Virus record (IMG/VR): IMGVR_UViG_3300025132_000021
Coordinates: 62,001 to 126,000 of that record
DNA length: 64,000 nt
Source: a virus
Strand: one strand, 5' to 3'
Part shown: in pieces, positions 18,312-56,126 of the stretch
Position numbering within the stretch: the first letter of the stretch is position 1
Layout: each line of letters starts with the position of its first letter
Position numbers and translations under genes: made by a program
The notes under the pieces: generated by a model
Databases searched by the model: none
The model's input: only the letters and a program-made list of their open reading frames with translations
What the model was told of the DNA's origin: nothing

Positions 18312-18385
18312 GGGGTCGTAGTTTAATTTGGAAGAACAACTCGTTTGCGACGAGTAGGCTGGGAGTTCAAATCTCCCCGACTCCA
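18312..18385 (+). tRNA. tRNA-Ala (anticodon UGC)
   Basis: Full cloverleaf: acceptor GGGGTCG/CGACTCC with the alanine identity pair G3:U70, D stem GTTT/GAAC with GG in the loop, anticodon stem ACTCG/CGAGT with loop TTTGCGA (anticodon TGC), five-base variable region, and T stem GGGAG/CTCCC with loop TTCAAAT. Discriminator A73; CCA is not encoded. No intron. It sits directly behind a tiny membrane-protein gene and is probably co-transcribed with it. Confidence 0.92.
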
Positions 18386-44422: not shown

Positions 44423-44629
44423 ATGTCGGAAGAGAGTCCAATCCCTAAACGCATGACTGTCAAGAAGTTGGGTCAAAAAGTGGATGAACTACAAGAAGTC
44501 GTAGATATTATCCATAGTGATATTGGAGAACTCAAAGAACTTTTGAAGACTATGATTGAACTTCAAATTGTTAAAACTCCAGAAATTGCTGATTCCAATG
44601 CGGCTTGGGTAGACCGTATGTATTCATAG
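44423..44629 (+). CDS. Small coiled-coil protein
   Basis: 68 residues; residues 11-50 form heptads (VKKLGQKVDELQEVVDIIHS) typical of a short coiled coil. Its last codons overlap the 3' end of the convergent PolD gene by 6 bases. Function unknown. Confidence 0.7.
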   Translation: MSEESPIPKRMTVKKLGQKVDELQEVVDIIHSDIGELKELLKTMIELQIVKTPEIADSNAAWVDRMYS

Positions 44630-47600
44630 TTTCTCAAACAAAGTTTGTTGTTTGCCTAATTCTTTGCTTTCAAATGTTTCGGCTACCCATTTGCTCACTT
44701 GAGCATACAAGCCCGCAATATAATGATTACATCCATATTTGTCAATAAGGGTCTGCATCAGTCCATCATATTTACTAACACCACCTTCAGTCACAGTCAA
44801 AATCAAACGACCGGGACATAAAGTTTCTACTTCTTCGCCCGTGAATGGGTCAGTCTTGGTTTCCATAATAGTCCGACACTTACCACTCACAGGCACACGG
44901 CGATAACTTGCCCCACACTTAGGACATCTAACCTTTTGTTGCCCATAGGCTCTTAGATTACCTCGCATATCTCTGATAAGGTGTCTGTCTATCAATTTAC
45001 TGGCTTGTTCTTTATTGTCCACAGAAGCCAACATCTCACCTAATGCGAACTGTTCCATAGTTTTCCTTCGCATAGAATCTAAAGTATTGTAAGGATTGTT
45101 TCTTGGACCTGCTGCACAATCTTCAGTATCGTGCGTATAGCCGATTTTACCTACGGGCAATTCGCCAGCATCGGTTAAAGTTTCTACAATGGCTATGCCT
45201 TCAACTTTCAAAGCCGACTTCGGACTTGGTGGTTCATCTGCCTGAGTCAATTCATAAAACTCCACAGGATATTCCCAAACCACATCTACATTCAAGGCTT
45301 CTTTATCAATTTCAGTAGCCACAATTCTGGTTGTCAAAGTCAAAGGTGCGTCCATGCGTCCACCACGACTCTTAGGTAAAAACATACGGCTAAAGTTTAT
45401 TAGTCCTTCTGCCAAGAGCAAGATACAATCAATATCTCCATCACAATTTCGGCGTTTCGCTGCATGATAAAATGGATGTCCGTAATGACCTTTAACACCC
45501 GCTACACCAATGATACGAGCCAATACTGCCCCACTGGTATGCGGTGCAAGACCCATAATCAATTGTCCAATCAAACTTTCTTGAGGGTTATCTTCGTTGA
45601 TTTCATAAAAAGGTTCAAGTTCATACATGGTTTCTAACATATCATTAGTAAATCTCATAGCGGCGACCAAAGAGTTCACACAATTTTCAGCAACCACTAC
45701 ATCTTGAGGCATCAATTCAATAATCTGGTCATCTGCGACCACAGGTTTTCCTTGACAATCTACCACATAACCTAAATCTACTGCTTGTGCTGCCGTTAGT
45801 CCGATTTCATCGGGTCTAAAATGAGTCATGGTAATATCTACCATGTCAAAGCGAATAGTGCCATCACGGAAGGCACTCGTTCCATTTCGGTGTCTTAACA
45901 CTCCTTTGAGCATAGCCTCTGGAGTTTTCTCAGCACTTCGTAGACCTTTGCTACCTTTTACTTCAGGTTCAGTGGCTTGATGAGTAGTTTCTAAACAATC
46001 TTTCCAAATCTCCTCTGTCCCCAGATGTTGTTTAATGACTCCTACAAAGTTTGTTTCCGTTGCCTCGTGCGGTGCTGTCGCATCGCCCGAACAAACACCC
46101 CGCCAAGTCTGTGTATCACAAGTTGGACACACACGGACACCTACTGATACGCTTTCGTTCTTGCGAGCAGCATCACGAATACGGCGTTGAGAACCAGAGT
46201 TAAAACCCACAGGCCAAAGCCCATGCACAGGAGGATTCATCTCCCGATGTTTAGAACCTTCGGGCTTGCCCATTCTGGCTCCAATTCGCAAAGTTGTTCT
46301 GGGTCGGATTTCATAATCGGCCAAATCATTTAACCACTCTATTGCGGATTCATAAATACTTAAGTTTATTTTCAAAGATTTCTCAACTTTGGCTAATAAA
46401 TTAAGAACTAATAAACTTTCATCTCCAAACAGATTGCCCTCTGCGTCTATGTTAATCTGCGCTCGGTAGACCAATTCCCTAAACTTTTCAGGAACTTGAA
46501 TCTTTTCTCCACACAGGCTAATCGTGATATTACTCATCAACTCATAACCTTCTTCGGCTGTCAAATCTTGCCAGCCTGTGGCGACATATTGAGGTGCAAT
46601 TGGCACGCCATAAACTTTTGATTGTTCTACCGCTTCCAAGAAATTAGCAGGTGCGCTAATCATTTCTTTCTTTAACACAGCATTGTGCCATTCTGAAACA
46701 TAAGGACTCGGAGGAAGTGGATGGTTATTTTCTAAGAACTCACCTAATGGAACTAAGAGTTCACCCAAGTCCCAAACTTTACGAATCGGCCACTCTGGTT
46801 CAGTTGGCAGAACCGTCCAATCGTCCTCTGGTTCTAATCCTGCTAAAACTTTCAACTCTGCATCGGAATTAAACCTCTGTGCCGAACCATCATTAAGTTC
46901 TACATAAGGTCCGTCAATACTTGTGCAAGGAGTTGCCACAGTTGCTTTACCCGGTCTCTCATATTTCATTTGAGTTCCACAGATAACGAAACCTGCCATA
47001 GCCATCATAGTAACTGGGTGCATAGCAGTTGTCGCCAATCCTGCTAATCGGCTTCGCCCATAGCGCAATCTTAACCCGCCGCTTTGCATGGGCAATCCAA
47101 ACAAAGGTCGTCCTGCTAAGAAATCACTCATAAACTTATCACTTGGTTTAATTTCCGTAGACCCTGTTTTTGTTTGCACAAAACTTTTTAGCCAATCCCA
47201 GCCATCAAGTTCTAACGCTTCCACATATTTTAGAATCTTTGGTGCTTTCAGAACCAGACCTTCACACATAACCAACAGCATACCTTCACGAACTTTGTTA
47301 GTTGGCACTCTGGGTAAATCACGCTGTCCTGTGACTTCACCACCCACGCCTTCACCATCAACATAAACAGGACAATTTTGGGCAATTACTTCTAATTGAG
47401 GATTACTTGGTCTGTATTGTAGACCACGACTATATTTAGAAACTTCTTCCTTGTATCTTTCCACTTCTGCAAAAGTAACTTTCGGAGTTCCCAAACCAAA
47501 ATCACGGCGTAAGACATCTGCAATCAAAACACTAAGAGCCTGACCTGTTCCACCTGCTGAACGAATTGGTCCAGCATAGTTCACGGCTAAACATTCCGTA

Positions 47601-48190
47601 GCGTCATCATTAGATAGAATCCGACAGGATACTACACCTTCCAGTGGGGCTACAAGGATTCCTTCAGTTAGCACCGCCAATCCTGCACAGATACCATGAT
47701 ACAAACAAGCAGAGATTCTCAAATGTTCACCACGAGCCTTCTGCGCTTCAGTTTCATAAGTTTCTAAAGTTTCTTTCCAATTGGCTTTTCCAATGTCATT
47801 ATTGAATCCCATAACACTTCCAGTGCCTCCGCAATCATCACACGGAACTTTCCAAGTGGGTGTTTTAGCAATTTCACCAGAACCATTACAAGGTTTGCAC
47901 TTTTGTTTAACACCATACAATAAACTTTCAGCCGTTACAATACGAGCAATATCAATTGCTACCAATTCACGGTTTCCATCGTGAATCTCTGTTAATTCAC
48001 GGATTTGCTCTGCGGTGCGACGAAGATGTAAGAAATCCAGAAGTTTTTGAGTTCGGTCTGCCAAGTCGCTGGCTCTTGGGATTTCTACTGTTAAACGAGG
48101 GTCTAAACCTTTCGCACGAGCCTTATCTGCTAATTGATAAACAACATCACACTCTTCTTCTAATCTCTGAATGTATGCTTCATAATCCAT
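44624..48190 (-). CDS. polC: DNA polymerase II (family D) large subunit, DP2
   Basis: 1,188 residues, full length for DP2. The N-terminal Zn motif CKPCNGSG ... CDDCGGTG, AVNYAGPIRSAGGTGQALSV, the VDGEGVGGEVTGQRD region, a second Zn set CPTCDTQTW ... C, the catalytic Asp cluster NCDGDID near residue 915 followed by NFSRMFLPKSRGGRMDAPL, and a C-terminal Zn finger CPKCGASYRR. It ends KQQTLFEKL, a PCNA-interaction-type tail. In the usual NCDGDED the Glu is here Ile, with the Asp residues retained. It acts as the replicative polymerase with a DP1 subunit, which is not in this window and may come from the host. Gene symbol by homology to archaeal polC. Confidence 0.95.
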   Translation of the reverse strand: MDYEAYIQRLEEECDVVYQLADKARAKGLDPRLTVEIPRASDLADRTQKLLDFLHLRRTAEQIRELTEIHDGNRELVAIDIARIVTAESLLYGVKQKCKPCNGSGEIAKTPTWKVPCDDCGGTGSVMGFNNDIGKANWKETLETYETEAQKARGEHLRISACLYHGICAGLAVLTEGILVAPLEGVVSCRILSNDDATECLAVNYAGPIRSAGGTGQALSVLIADVLRRDFGLGTPKVTFAEVERYKEEVSKYSRGLQYRPSNPQLEVIAQNCPVYVDGEGVGGEVTGQRDLPRVPTNKVREGMLLVMCEGLVLKAPKILKYVEALELDGWDWLKSFVQTKTGSTEIKPSDKFMSDFLAGRPLFGLPMQSGGLRLRYGRSRLAGLATTAMHPVTMMAMAGFVICGTQMKYERPGKATVATPCTSIDGPYVELNDGSAQRFNSDAELKVLAGLEPEDDWTVLPTEPEWPIRKVWDLGELLVPLGEFLENNHPLPPSPYVSEWHNAVLKKEMISAPANFLEAVEQSKVYGVPIAPQYVATGWQDLTAEEGYELMSNITISLCGEKIQVPEKFRELVYRAQINIDAEGNLFGDESLLVLNLLAKVEKSLKINLSIYESAIEWLNDLADYEIRPRTTLRIGARMGKPEGSKHREMNPPVHGLWPVGFNSGSQRRIRDAARKNESVSVGVRVCPTCDTQTWRGVCSGDATAPHEATETNFVGVIKQHLGTEEIWKDCLETTHQATEPEVKGSKGLRSAEKTPEAMLKGVLRHRNGTSAFRDGTIRFDMVDITMTHFRPDEIGLTAAQAVDLGYVVDCQGKPVVADDQIIELMPQDVVVAENCVNSLVAAMRFTNDMLETMYELEPFYEINEDNPQESLIGQLIMGLAPHTSGAVLARIIGVAGVKGHYGHPFYHAAKRRNCDGDIDCILLLAEGLINFSRMFLPKSRGGRMDAPLTLTTRIVATEIDKEALNVDVVWEYPVEFYELTQADEPPSPKSALKVEGIAIVETLTDAGELPVGKIGYTHDTEDCAAGPRNNPYNTLDSMRRKTMEQFALGEMLASVDNKEQASKLIDRHLIRDMRGNLRAYGQQKVRCPKCGASYRRVPVSGKCRTIMETKTDPFTGEEVETLCPGRLILTVTEGGVSKYDGLMQTLIDKYGCNHYIAGLYAQVSKWVAETFESKELGKQQTLFEKL

Positions 48191-48230: not shown

Positions 48231-50939
48231 TTAAACTTGTCCGTCCATGAAAGAATATGGGCTACGGTCGTTAATAGAAACAACTTTTAGTTCACCATTC
48301 CAAACTAAAGTAGAACCATTTTCTAACTTGCGAGAAGGAATTGGTGCTAACGCCAAATCAGGGAAAGACCCTGAATCTTTAGGGAAACCTTTCTCTACAT
48401 TAAAACTTTCAATTTGCATCTCTGAACCATCTGGGAAAATCAGATAAATAAAATCTTCAGAATAAGTGTTGCCTAAATCTACGGCCACTACCATATCTTC
48501 GGATTTCCAATCCTCCATTCCTACATCATCAGCAGCCATTTCTATCCAGTTTAACAAATACTCGGCTAATTGAAAACTAATGTTTTCTAATCCATCGTTA
48601 TTCTTTTCTTCAAAAGAAAGAATTGGTTGTCTAAGCATAGTAATATCGCCATCATTATATCCTAAATAACTAAAACTAAATTGACGAGGTGAGCGAGCAT
48701 TAGCATCTCTAATAAAACCAAAGTTTTTACTACGATAGATACGGGCTAAGTTTCGGTGAAATACTAAGTTTTCATCTGACATCCAGAGCCAAAACAAATC
48801 AGCATCACTACTTACTGAACTTTCAGCCCCTTTTGCTAATGCCTTGTAGCAAGCACACTTTGGTTCAATTGCCGAGCAACTCATTGGCTCAGGTGCTTTC
48901 ATGCAAACACAAGGATTGGATTTAGTAGCACCACAGCAACACGAAGTTTTGCTAAGTTTTTCTTCAGCATCACGACGGCGTTTGAGCGACGGTGTTCCGT
49001 CCAGAGGAGTCCAGTTCACAGGTTCTCCAAACTCCATTGGTCTTTGAATAGGTGCAGAACCTTCTTCAGATGCAAAAGGATTTAATTTTTTAGCAGCAGT
49101 TTGAGCCTTATCTTTAATTTTTTGAGTTGCTGGCATCTGTTCTACGGTAGACCTTACTCCACCATATTTGCGGTTGCACCACTCTTCTTGTCTTTCTCTT
49201 TCCTCTACCAATGCCGACTCATCTTTAGTATTCGCAAAGACAGATGCTTTAATTGCATTCCCGAACTCTTGATAAAATGCTGCTTTTTCATTATGTGTCA
49301 GACCTGAGATTTCGGGGGCAACATCTTCTACCAACATATTAACAATCATTGAGCAATTTATGTTCTTTTGAGGAGTTGAATACAGGGTGTAGTTATCATC
49401 ACCAGCCCGACAATAAATACCCATAGCCCTCGCAATAGGCCATGCCAATCTTTTAATTGCGCCTGATGGAATCTCAAACCGTTGCTTAACATAATCTTTA
49501 CCTTCTTTCTTATCCACCATTGTTGCTTGTTTAGTAAAACTACTAACCATTTCTGCAACACCCATCACTGAAGGTTCACTTGTTGCACTGGCGGTTGGAA
49601 TCTTTGACATAGGTTCTCCACGAGCCAAGGCCGCTACCACATCTAATGGAGATTGCACCACACCAGTTCCACTGACAGTAGGACCAGTAGTGCCTGTTTC
49701 TAATTGGGCTAACTCTTCCATCATAATTGATGACAAATCTCTGTAAAACTTCTGACTTTTATTTCCATAAGGCGGTGCAGCCACGACATAACCATCTTTG
49801 GCTAATCTTTTTAATCCACCAATTAAAGCGGCTCGTAATGGTTCAGTTCTTGATTTTGCCCCATCAACTTCTCCCTTAACATAATCTGCTTGAAAACTTT
49901 GTTCAGCACGCATTTCTGGAGGCTTATAGGTGCGACCCAACAAATCATAGATTTCTTCTTCAGTTGCCCCGCCGAGATACTCGTTGGTATCACGGTCAAA
50001 CAATCCGTATTCATTAAGTTTCAAACCTTTGCGCTTGGCTGCCGAGCGCATACCAATGTTATATCCAGAAGGTCCTGTAAAATAAAGTAAGGCTGCGCCG
50101 ATACCAGTAGGTGTGCTAACTTTAATATCTACTTTAACACCATCAATAACTAATTGAGTTTTCTTTTCACCCAACCAATTATATTTCTCATAGTTTCCTT
50201 CTAAGTCGGCTACTATTTCTGGCAAAGTAATACCTTCTTTAAGAATAACTACTACATCAAGGTCGCCCGGGTCTTCCCGACCACGACGATAACTTCCACA
50301 AACTTCTACAAAGTCTGCATAAGGTTCTAACATATCTGAAACTTTATTGGCTAAGAGTTCTGCTTCTGCACGAGTCATACGCTCTGATTCATCTCGGTCT
50401 TCTGCCCCAAACTTTTCAACTAATTGTTTCATAATTTCTTCTTCACTAATCAATCCTAATCTAACCATAGATTCCAACTGCAACAAAGTTTCTTGCATCT
50501 GGGCTTCTTCAATCATCTTTTGATACATCACAGCACGCTCGGCGTAACCTTTTGGAACTTTACCTCTGACCACGGCATTAAAAGTTTCAATTTCGTCCAC
50601 ATCAACTTCTTCCATAACATACAAAATACGATAAGCAGGTTCGTCGTCTAAACTTTCTTCTTGGAGAATGTAGGAAACTTGGTCTTCCGCTTCGCCACGA
50701 ACACCAATGAAAACTTTGTAAGGTAAATCTGCTTTAGTAGACACGGCTTCTAAACTCACGAACTCATCAGCAGGCAAAAGTTCTTGAACACGATATTCCG
50801 CATCAAAGTCCATTAGATATTTAGAATTACGAAACATTTGTTGAGCAAATTGATAAGGCACTAAAACATACCTTTGATTATCTCTGGGGTCAGAAACAAT
50901 AGTTCCCATAGGAGATACAGAAACAAAATTAAGTTGCAT
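48231..50939 (-). CDS. Large fusion protein containing a family X DNA polymerase domain
   Basis: 902 residues. Residues about 185-340 are a PolX nucleotidyltransferase: GSYRRG (215-220), DLD metal ligands (226-228), third Asp at 271 (VDIKVSTP) and YFTGPSGYNI (286-295), then LKLNEYGLFD. Unlike bacterial and archaeal PolX there is no PHP domain and the helix-hairpin-helix region is not obvious. It is flanked by an unrecognised 180-residue N-terminal part and a 550-residue C-terminal part with a Cys cluster (SCCCGATKSNPCVC, CACYKA). Promoter 31 nt upstream; probably an operon with PolD 41 bases downstream. It may repair gaps, act at genome ends, or serve a terminal role in replication. Confidence 0.85.
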   Translation of the reverse strand: MQLNFVSVSPMGTIVSDPRDNQRYVLVPYQFAQQMFRNSKYLMDFDAEYRVQELLPADEFVSLEAVSTKADLPYKVFIGVRGEAEDQVSYILQEESLDDEPAYRILYVMEEVDVDEIETFNAVVRGKVPKGYAERAVMYQKMIEEAQMQETLLQLESMVRLGLISEEEIMKQLVEKFGAEDRDESERMTRAEAELLANKVSDMLEPYADFVEVCGSYRRGREDPGDLDVVVILKEGITLPEIVADLEGNYEKYNWLGEKKTQLVIDGVKVDIKVSTPTGIGAALLYFTGPSGYNIGMRSAAKRKGLKLNEYGLFDRDTNEYLGGATEEEIYDLLGRTYKPPEMRAEQSFQADYVKGEVDGAKSRTEPLRAALIGGLKRLAKDGYVVAAPPYGNKSQKFYRDLSSIMMEELAQLETGTTGPTVSGTGVVQSPLDVVAALARGEPMSKIPTASATSEPSVMGVAEMVSSFTKQATMVDKKEGKDYVKQRFEIPSGAIKRLAWPIARAMGIYCRAGDDNYTLYSTPQKNINCSMIVNMLVEDVAPEISGLTHNEKAAFYQEFGNAIKASVFANTKDESALVEERERQEEWCNRKYGGVRSTVEQMPATQKIKDKAQTAAKKLNPFASEEGSAPIQRPMEFGEPVNWTPLDGTPSLKRRRDAEEKLSKTSCCCGATKSNPCVCMKAPEPMSCSAIEPKCACYKALAKGAESSVSSDADLFWLWMSDENLVFHRNLARIYRSKNFGFIRDANARSPRQFSFSYLGYNDGDITMLRQPILSFEEKNNDGLENISFQLAEYLLNWIEMAADDVGMEDWKSEDMVVAVDLGNTYSEDFIYLIFPDGSEMQIESFNVEKGFPKDSGSFPDLALAPIPSRKLENGSTLVWNGELKVVSINDRSPYSFMDGQV

Positions 50940-50960: not shown

Positions 50961-50971
50961 GATACTTAAAG
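50961..50971 (-). promoter_or_regulatory. TATA-type promoter for the PolX-PolD operon
   Basis: CTTTAAGTATC on the minus strand, first T at 50970, 31 nt before the ATG at 50939. It overlaps the 3' end of the upstream gene (stop at 50966). Confidence 0.8.
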
Positions 50972-52351
50972 ATATGGATAAGGAGTAGCACTCCAAACCT
51001 CTATGGTTTCCGCACCATATTCTCCAGACATCAATTCATAACCAACAAACTTCCAGATTTCAGCCCATGAGCCTCCGCAGGAATTACACCTTACTTCTTG
51101 TAAGCCGTTTTCTAAAGAACCCTCGTAGCCAATATCGTCTGCACCACACCAAGGACAGTGCATCAATTCTGCCATTTCCATGAAAGTTTCAGCATTCATA
51201 GCCTTGTCTATCTCCCAATCTCCATCATTATTCTCTTCATCAAGATAATTACGGGATACTCCAAGTTCATACACAGGTTCTTTATCCATGACACAAAGTT
51301 CATTTTCTTGCCAGAAAAAACTGATGTTATAGGCAATTGTAGAAGCCCAATCTACGGCTTCCCACGGAATCCAAGCAGTTAATACGATACGGTCAAAATC
51401 TTTTCCTTCTTCGCCTTTCATGTGGTCTATACCCTCATGTCCGAACAATGCCCCTGCGTAAAACTTACTCTGCCACAACCAAGAAGTAATCTTATCTCCA
51501 TAAACTCCATATTGGTCTTGCTTTCTATTTTCCCAATTGCCTAATGAATCTACATTAACTGGTGTGCCTACGGGAACATAAAGAACTCTCCATGCTTGCA
51601 TCATTATTCCATGGTCGTCATCAGAATACATCCAAGTTCCCTTTTCAAATCTTTCAAGCCAAATATCAAACATCCTCTCAAAGTATTCATCTTTAGTGGT
51701 ATCTTCGCCAAGTTCCGAACCATCAGGCAAGTCAAACCCTTCCTCATAAGCCCCCAATCCTCCTCCAGCCATATTATGTTCTGCCCAATGTTTAATATCT
51801 TCTTGAGCAGGTGAATACCAAATCCGTTTTATTTCATTTATGATATAATCTGTGCAAGCAAAGTTTTCTTCACTTGATTCTGCATCCAATCTACGGGTCT
51901 CATTGTTTTTGGGAAATAAACTGCTGCCCCAAAACTTTTTGCCAGTGCGCTTGGCCTTACGAACTACCATTGGAGTTCCTGTGCTATCACGAGGCACACG
52001 GTTTAGATAACCAGACTTGACTAAGTTCTCTAACTCATAAACACGGTTTAACAAATTGCGTCGCCAGTTTTCTACTCGGTGAACTCTGGTCGTTCCAGCA
52101 ACTTTCACTCCATCTACCCAGTATTGCACTCGGATAGCATCACGACCTTTCGCCCGACTGGTCTGCCCAGTCACGCTGGAATAAACTCGGATTTCGCCCT
52201 CACCCAAAGGACGGGTGAACACTCTTTCTTTGACAACTCGGATTGCCCCACTGGGATATTTACTGGACCGTTCTTCTATGGAAAGTTCCCTAAAACTCAA
52301 GGCTTCCATAAAATCTTGCATTTGAGCCACGCTAATATCAACATAACTCAT
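50966..52351 (-). CDS. Phage-type domain protein with degenerate topoisomerase-like zinc finger
   Basis: 461 residues. Residues 1-110 (PSGAIRVVKERVF, EIRVYSSVTGQTSRAKGRDA, RVHRVENWRRNL) match a domain common in phage and archaeal-element proteins that normally precedes a topoisomerase-type C4 zinc finger. Here the finger is still recognisable (GTPMVVRK ... KKFWGSSLFP, 125-153) but its four cysteines are replaced by R121, T124, S143 and N149. The C-terminal part has a separate CPWCG/CNSCGG pair and MNAET and YGAET tetrads. Leaderless promoter. It might act in DNA handling or be a virion protein. Confidence 0.76.
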   Translation of the reverse strand: MSYVDISVAQMQDFMEALSFRELSIEERSSKYPSGAIRVVKERVFTRPLGEGEIRVYSSVTGQTSRAKGRDAIRVQYWVDGVKVAGTTRVHRVENWRRNLLNRVYELENLVKSGYLNRVPRDSTGTPMVVRKAKRTGKKFWGSSLFPKNNETRRLDAESSEENFACTDYIINEIKRIWYSPAQEDIKHWAEHNMAGGGLGAYEEGFDLPDGSELGEDTTKDEYFERMFDIWLERFEKGTWMYSDDDHGIMMQAWRVLYVPVGTPVNVDSLGNWENRKQDQYGVYGDKITSWLWQSKFYAGALFGHEGIDHMKGEEGKDFDRIVLTAWIPWEAVDWASTIAYNISFFWQENELCVMDKEPVYELGVSRNYLDEENNDGDWEIDKAMNAETFMEMAELMHCPWCGADDIGYEGSLENGLQEVRCNSCGGSWAEIWKFVGYELMSGEYGAETIEVWSATPYPYL

Positions 52352-52371
52352 AGATTATCTCAAGTCGTGCG

Positions 52372-52382
52372 ACTACTTAAAG
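52372..52382 (-). promoter_or_regulatory. TATA-type promoter
   Basis: CTTTAAGTAGTCG on the minus strand, first T at 52381, 30 nt before the ATG at 52351. It directly abuts a plus-strand ATTAAGTATC element, making a divergent pair. Confidence 0.82.
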
Positions 52383-52391
52383 ATTAAGTAT
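52382..52391 (+). promoter_or_regulatory. Divergent TATA-type promoter with no ORF downstream
   Basis: GATTAAGTATCAAGG in plus orientation has the same core and context as promoters of protein genes, but no start codon occurs at the 30-nt position (about 52413). It would drive a transcript into the hairpin cluster. Confidence 0.6.
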
Positions 52392-52411
52392 CAAGGACTC
52401 GCAGCCCTCAT

Positions 52412-52515
52412 CCCATCGGCTTCGCCTCAAGTGTCTACGACACAGGGGGCAACCTATCCCTCTGTTGCTACGCAACATTCACCCCATCCGGGGAGAGGAG
52501 ATTCCTCTTAGGGTA
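52412..52515 (+). ncRNA. Candidate structured small RNA
   Basis: Predicted start about 52413, 30 nt after the plus-strand TATA element. In about 100 bases there are several compact stems: GGC/GCC (52418-52426), GTGTC/GACAC with loop TAC (52431-52443), TGTTGC/GCAACA with loop TAC (52463-52477), CCCC/GGGG (52482-52493) and AGAGG/CCTCT (52494-52508). An alternative 8-bp stem pairs 52442-52449 with 52458-52465. GC content is visibly higher than the neighbourhood and there is no ORF. The 3' end is not defined. It would run convergent to the small gene at 52524. Confidence 0.6.
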
Positions 52516-52523
52516 TAGTCCAC

Positions 52524-52682
52524 TTACTCGTTGAGGTCGGCCATGCGGTCGCTCAAAAGCAATAGTGCTGATGCCCAAAGTCCGACAAAGATACCAAGGT
52601 TCTCGTCGTGAGCAAAGTAAATAGCAATACTACCCAAGATTGATACAAGGCTTGCACCTAATCCCAACTTTTTCCAGTTCAT
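52524..52682 (-). CDS. 52-residue two-helix membrane protein
   Basis: Starts at the ATG that overlaps the TGA of the SAP-domain gene (ATGA), so it is translationally coupled. Two hydrophobic stretches (about 5-24 and 30-43) followed by SDRMADLNE. Too short for family assignment. With the SAP protein it forms a small membrane-linked cassette. Confidence 0.65.
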   Translation of the reverse strand: MNWKKLGLGASLVSILGSIAIYFAHDENLGIFVGLWASALLLLSDRMADLNE

Positions 52683-55827: not shown

Positions 55828-56126
55828 TTATCATCACCTTCACCTACCAATACTCGCTATTACCCTATTAAGGATGATGCAGTAGCCGCCGAACCCCTTT
55901 TTTGACGAAGGAGGGGGATTCATTATCACCAATTACGGTGTTTTGACCCAATCCATTCCTGACGCATTATTACTTTTCAATAACGCTAACGCCAATCATG
56001 TTAGTGGTGGCAACAACGGGGGTGTAAAGTCCGACGCAGCAAGGAGCCTTACAGGAAGGAGCCTATACGCTACGCCAGACCCTACATTACGAAGTCTGCA
56101 TCAACCCCAGACGGGGCTGGTTTGTC
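55828..56126. other. Structured intergenic region between mcm-like and downstream cluster genes
   Basis: 299 bases with no convincing gene. It contains hairpins: GAACCCC ... GGGG(GA)TTC (55891-55921), CACC-AATTAC-GGTG (55927-55940), CAGAC ... GTCTG (56076-56098), CCCC-AGAC-GGGG (56105-56116), and CATCA (56099-56103) with TGATG (56133-56137, just inside the adjacent coding end). AAGGAGCC is repeated at 56041 and 56056. The central part (55963-55985) is AT-rich. A small RNA, a long mcm leader or part of a replication origin are all possible. Confidence 0.5.
55863..55873 (-). promoter_or_regulatory. Putative promoter of the mcm-like gene
   Basis: CTTAATAGGG on the minus strand, TATA-equivalent base at 55872, 45 nt before the ATG at 55827; the predicted 15-nt leader holds GGTGAAGGTGAT. 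Confidence 0.45.

Follow-up and report, generated by a model that had tools for sequence, protein, structure and literature searches.

In the window, by which we mean the whole 64,000-nt stretch of DNA analysed here (bases 62001-126000 of the 160 kb IMG/VR virus record G000), about 130 non-coding bases separate the stop codon (52524) of a 52-aa gene from the promoter box of a 461-aa gene. An array of small hairpins fills this gap. The features of the locus are listed below, where G001 is a related virus.

52524-52682, minus strand: 52-aa gene with its stop at the array, coding for a small hydrophobic protein, 83% identical in G001
50966-52351, minus strand: 461-aa gene, family not assigned, downstream of the minus-strand promoter
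52373-52381, minus strand: TATA-type box TTTAAGTAG of the leaderless 461-aa gene, conserved in G001
52383-52392, plus strand: orphan promoter-like box ATTAAGTATC, predicted transcript start near 52413, not conserved in G001
52393-52523, plus strand: hairpin-array element, window copy, fold z -3.95, with a homologous array at the same gap in G001; covariance-model match at 52445-52495
52395-52521, plus strand: possible closing stem, GGACT (52395-52399) with AGTCC (52517-52521), present in the MFE and centroid structures and not found in other copies
52418-52426, plus strand: small hairpin GGC-TTC-GCC, seen in the fold
52431-52443, plus strand: interchangeable triloop hairpin H1, GTGTC-TAC-GACAC
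52445-52461, plus strand: core hairpin H2, GGGGG-CAACCTA-TCCCT, loop CARCCUW kept in all copies while the stem covaries
52463-52477, plus strand: interchangeable triloop hairpin H3, TGTTGC-TAC-GCAACA, absent from the G001 28k copy
52482-52493, plus strand: core segment H4, CCCC-ATCC-GGGG, of YUAUCCGG type, one T missing in the window copy
52494-52508, plus strand: hairpin H5, AGAGGA-GAT-TCCTCT

Elsewhere the window codes for an MCM-like helicase (a Pfam match below cut-off) and a SAP-domain protein found by domain search, and its virus also has a terminase gene. The gene at 44624-48190 (-) we read as the large subunit of an archaeal DNA polymerase, presumably of family D, and that at 48231-50939 (-) encodes a protein of 902 aa in which Pol-beta/X palm and thumb domains are recognised, the long rest being unassigned. 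A tRNA-Ala (TGC) is located at 18312-18385 (+); G001 has a tRNA-Pro instead. The DP2 alignment search recovered only two relatives sharing the polymerase, G001 (166 kb, 72% identity) and G002 (150 kb, 56%), and these viruses appear to form a small clade of large, tailed archaeal viruses. A hairpin-rich intergenic stretch precedes the MCM-like gene in both the window (55828-56126) and G002 (L077:6338-6654, z -2.84 in G002), possibly a replication or RNA element of another kind. At L002:2387-4988, G001 carries three tandem genes that resemble cytosine methyltransferases by sequence, with none at the matching place in the window. The 52-aa protein is highly conserved and recurs in contigs of ~95 kb that lack the polymerase and place it among different neighbours. 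Because that size resembles that of magroviruses (PMC10768690), we infer an archaeal host, possibly Poseidoniales.

Promoters in these genomes are of the archaeal TATA type, leaderless and very regular across G000, G001 and G002. In G000, counted without the 2.1 kb piece L096, 51 of 64 TTTAAGTA boxes are followed at 29-32 nt by a start codon opening an ORF of at least 40 codons, as are 7 of 14 ATTAAGTA boxes. A start codon lies 29-32 nt downstream of 59 of the 73 TTTAAGTA boxes in G001 and at that distance from the first base of ATTAAGTA in 26 of 31 cases in G002. The TTTAAGTAG box fits this pattern: the 461-aa gene has its ATG at 52351, 30 nt downstream of the first T of the box. The first-pass annotation had described a plus-strand promoter element adjoining this minus-strand promoter, and such an element is indeed present at 52383-52392 beside 52373-52381; the two boxes together form a 7-bp inverted repeat (52374-52390). 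It had also stated that no start codon lies at the 30-nt point. Among four ATTAAGTATC boxes in G000, an ATG follows three at exactly 30 nt and the copy at 52383 alone has none, which makes it an orphan member of a genuine promoter class.

The window array is structured beyond chance. Its plus strand (52393-52523) folded to -48.6 kcal/mol, compared with -35.2 (sd 3.4) for 200 dinucleotide shuffles, none of which was as low; the excess stability that the first-pass annotation had proposed to look for was thus found on this strand. The minus strand of the same interval gave z -1.47, with 14 of 200 shuffles as low, and the plus strand treated as single-stranded DNA gave z -3.58. A repeat with separate shuffles returned z -3.5 for all pairs and -2.7 when only local hairpins were allowed. 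The predicted string of hairpins comprises six mini-stems at 52418-52508, three of them with at least five perfect pairs. As the annotation had also said, the array holds no ORF of at least 40 aa on the plus strand. The TAC loops ascribed to it occur in two hairpins, H1 and H3, the third triloop being GAT. When local folding was ranked at a given G+C, the site came about fifteenth among 47,468 windows from the three related genomes and is therefore strong yet not unique on folding energy alone.

Comparison of the related genomes revealed six copies of the element, two in G000 (the window copy and one at 135.7k) and four in G001 (28k, 50k, 84k and 123.6k). The G001 copy at 50.5k occupies the same intergenic gap as the window copy, with the same hairpin order and different stems. 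The 84k and 123.6k copies were located through a search for the conserved loop, and those at 135.7k and 28k by a motif scan of the three genomes. The latter two directly follow orthologous endonuclease VII-like genes, which played no part in locating them. A near-identical strain of G000 (L103/G017) holds an extra copy, at the 135.7k locus. Since the six copies derive from two viruses (plus this one strain), counts over them are not independent. A covariance model of the six cores, trained on those same copies, gave exactly six matches in 477 kb from the three viruses (E 1e-11 to 1e-5), the next at E 4. With a model built from the four G001 copies and searched in G000 and G002, the 135.7k copy took first place (E 9.6e-6); the window copy followed in second place at an E of only 0.83, so its membership rests on synteny as well as score. 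The covariance search suggested beforehand did yield homologues with compensatory changes, one of them at the same place in G001. No copy was detected by the model in 15 further virus records (G002 and 14 other contigs), even though G002 has the same polymerase.

Wider searches added little. The pattern GGGGNCAACCTWTCCC matched 49 stretches, of which three, all from G001, contained the array; matches in L068 and L073 were chance hits inside coding sequence, and L084:10517, which has the H1 hairpin in common, proved to be coding. Thirteen viral stretches carried a relaxed pattern: four from G001, one from L103 and a remainder with weak scores. The same relaxed pattern, a narrow one, matched 49 stretches in the genomes of 84,980 species, all bacterial, at about the number estimated by hand for chance and with a best score of 25 bits, and no host copy was found. 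Viral-contig searches with the 461-aa and MCM-like proteins singly found nothing, and searches of phage DNA and phage proteins gave only chance or remote matches. Against Rfam release 15, only a tRNA elsewhere in the window reached the gathering score, the group I core RF00028 did not reach it there, and seven further loci, of which five contain copies, matched no family at that score; a permissive search of 52350-52560 returned two chance-level matches. We take AGGGTATAGTCC to resemble the S element of group I introns, a resemblance not common to the other copies. The array is like Rfam structured RNAs in being non-coding and built of compact covarying hairpins, and no description of such an element was found in the open-licence literature searched. 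The best reading is that these copies form a dispersed family of structured elements that is undescribed and not in Rfam.

The copies share a simple anatomy. Core hairpin H2, with a 5-bp stem and the 7-nt loop CARCCUW, is common to all of them. Core segment H4 reads CYUAUCCGG, usually with a short closing stem, which is weak or absent in the 28k copy; its first U is missing in the window copy. Between H2 and H4 lies an optional hairpin that the 28k copy lacks. The outer hairpins mostly have three-base loops closed by C-G and are wholly different from copy to copy. Taken together, the six copies contain 20 perfect hairpins with stems of at least 5 bp, where 3.1 would be expected and none of 500 shuffled sets had more than 10; the 135.7k copy contributes one, no more than its shuffles. 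In the core alignment A6, which was fitted to the model and so favours structure, 94% of cells are paired and four of nine pairs have changed on both sides, a level reached by 3 of 500 shuffles; the covariation signal, from core pairs in six distinct rows, was lost when the partner was slid. With the loops fixed and the stems free, the pattern argues for hairpin-loop recognition in a single strand by a common partner. On the sense strand the core cells contain six G.U pairs and one A.C, the latter being a G.U on the other strand, and these counts weakly favour a sense-strand RNA. Local folding of the sense strand ranges from z -1.1 to -5.0 over the six copies. In most of them folding of the antisense strand is almost as good, and global folding is ordinary in two (135.7k, z -0.02; 28k, z -0.85).

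These comparisons bear directly on the proposal that a promoter of the regular class drives a structured non-coding transcript at the window locus, that is, a stand-alone viral small RNA starting near 52413 from the box at 52383. Much of that proposal stood: boxes of its class are elsewhere followed by an ATG at exactly 30 nt, and the sequence behind the box at 52383 is non-coding, structured, conserved with compensation and richer in G.U than in A.C pairs. Its reading as a small-RNA gene was not borne out in that form. The box is missing upstream of the other five copies, ortholog included, and the sense-strand promoter score is 9.8 for the window copy and at most 1.5 for the others, with the caveat that the matrix was trained on TTTA boxes and undervalues ATTA boxes. 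In addition, a start at 52413 would omit the closing strand GGACT, and the same core is found elsewhere without such a promoter. The element is a dispersed family rather than a single gene, and we consider a dedicated small RNA from the orphan box unlikely.

The position of the copies relative to genes was then compared. Each of the six occupies the gap from a stop codon to the promoter of the following gene, the stop at 123.6k in G001 falling just inside the array, into which the upstream ORF continues. At three of the four loci (28k/135.7k, 84k and 123.6k) the core is on the strand of the upstream gene and has no promoter of its own; at the window/50k locus it is opposite to the upstream gene, in both viruses. 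Gene-relative orientation varies between loci, in conflict with a plain 3'-UTR function. A transcription boundary working in either orientation, or a cluster of terminator-like hairpins, would account for the position of every copy. In so compact a genome, however, nearly any non-coding element would sit there; moreover, the hairpins are not followed by a T run, a terminator has no need of conserved loops, and most intergenic gaps are without such arrays. We therefore regard a boundary role as quite improbable.

The distribution of copies suggests that some were added later than others. The 123.6k site of G001 is empty in G000, where 34 bp separate stop from ATG, and the genes flanking the G001 84k copy are non-adjacent in G000 and have no array there, so that both comparisons display presence and absence at orthologous sites, as expected of a REP/MITE-type mobile element. 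Whole-element likeness among the G001 copies at 50k, 84k and 123k is high (z 12 to 19), compared with z 3.9 between the window copy and its 50k ortholog, 7.9 between window and 135.7k, and 0.0 between 135.7k and 28k. At loop position R the window and 50k copies both have A, and the 135.7k and 28k copies both have G. As this base is shared within each pair, both loci appear to be ancestral; the copies at 84k and 123.6k are of the 50k type and seem to have been added afterwards.

Such a history would also be expected of a mobile, non-autonomous palindromic DNA element, whose hairpins would act in DNA and spread by gene conversion, possibly aided by the viral endonuclease VII-like protein as in the F-CphI case discussed below. 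Two to four copies per genome, the empty and array-free sites in G000, the close mutual likeness of the G001 copies and the free orientation all agree with it. No target-site duplication was seen. No Y1_Tnp, Phage_integrase or TnpB-type domain (Y1 transposase, tyrosine recombinase and TnpB) was found in G000, G001 or G002; a host enzyme might act in trans. The report on GC42, a family of mobile GC clusters in yeast mitochondria (PMC4478555), describes conserved stems and variable loops. In that account GC42 is like the array in its GC-rich palindromes, intergenic and dispersed location, variable copy number and constrained structure. The array differs from it in that the loops are conserved and the stems vary with compensation, the reverse of GC42 as described there, and in having only two to four copies.

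The genes directly before the 135.7k and 28k copies are as follows.

L097:9917-10813, minus strand, and L085:7068-7988, plus strand: endonuclease VII-like gene, with several CxxC ribbons ahead of the nuclease domain

The protein carries the motif DHDHETG..RGVLC..CN, and its two versions are 40% identical. All three element-bearing records have an endonuclease VII-like gene, and none of the 15 element-free records does; this co-occurrence comes from a single clade, four of the 15 being fragments below 10 kb and most of the others belonging to another virus group. Comparison of strains L103 and L097 gave a mosaic in which the block of endonuclease VII gene, array and a 46-aa gene is 99.5% identical, with breaks on both sides. 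OMEGA systems combine a TnpB or IscB nuclease with an omegaRNA. In the TnpB-like layout a structured RNA lies directly 3' of the nuclease gene with further copies elsewhere, and the array is arranged likewise, its RNA form being putative. Compared with TnpB systems, the array locus differs in lacking a TnpB domain and, in the sequences compared, a guide-like match: there the 110-nt flanks of the copies matched only promoter, coding or short stretches of at most 17 nt, which tells to some extent against an RNA-guided nuclease. The array could still work as RNA together with the multi-zinc-ribbon endonuclease VII-like protein: one copy would be made in cis, at the 3' end of the transcript of the nuclease gene, the others would come in trans from solitary loci, and the two partners would form an RNA-directed or RNA-assisted Endo VII-fold nuclease used for homing or inter-virus conflict. 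We judge this very improbable.

A precedent for mobility is F-CphI, a nuclease with the DHHRN / Endo VII motif that is reported (PMC6083498) to drive the spread of an adjoining non-coding element by collaborative homing. As described there, it resembles the array locus in that a gene for an Endo VII-motif nuclease stands on its own in a viral genome, next to non-coding sequence with structure. The two differ in that the sequence spread by F-CphI is a group I intron interrupting a gene, and the array consists of intergenic hairpins with no group I match. The gene association agrees with mobile DNA, yet the endonuclease may be a mere junction resolvase. Considering all of these points, we view a mobile DNA element as a possible explanation, though a doubtful one.

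The reading we favour, and hold with about even confidence, is a dispersed non-coding structured family acting as folded sense-strand RNA read through two fixed loops, with copies added to intergenic sites. The active form would be the single-stranded folded sense strand; judged from the sequences, RNA is more likely than DNA to be the form recognised. The CARCCUW and YUAUCCGG hairpins would serve as the recognition part, probably read by a common protein or RNA partner, and the other hairpins as spacers or insulators in which pairing alone matters. The transcript could come by read-through from the upstream gene at three of the four loci, or from the orphan divergent promoter at the window locus. 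Further intergenic sites would have gained copies within one lineage, and the element may affect viral gene expression.

To our knowledge, viral non-coding elements of uncultured archaea have been little explored. The element offers a concrete family to seek in metatranscriptomes: its loops are conserved, its stems covary, it occurs in several copies and a nuclease may be its neighbour. As a viral RNA, it would point to an RNA-based function not yet described for large tailed viruses of archaea; as mobile DNA, it would show that such viruses can carry dispersed palindromic elements.
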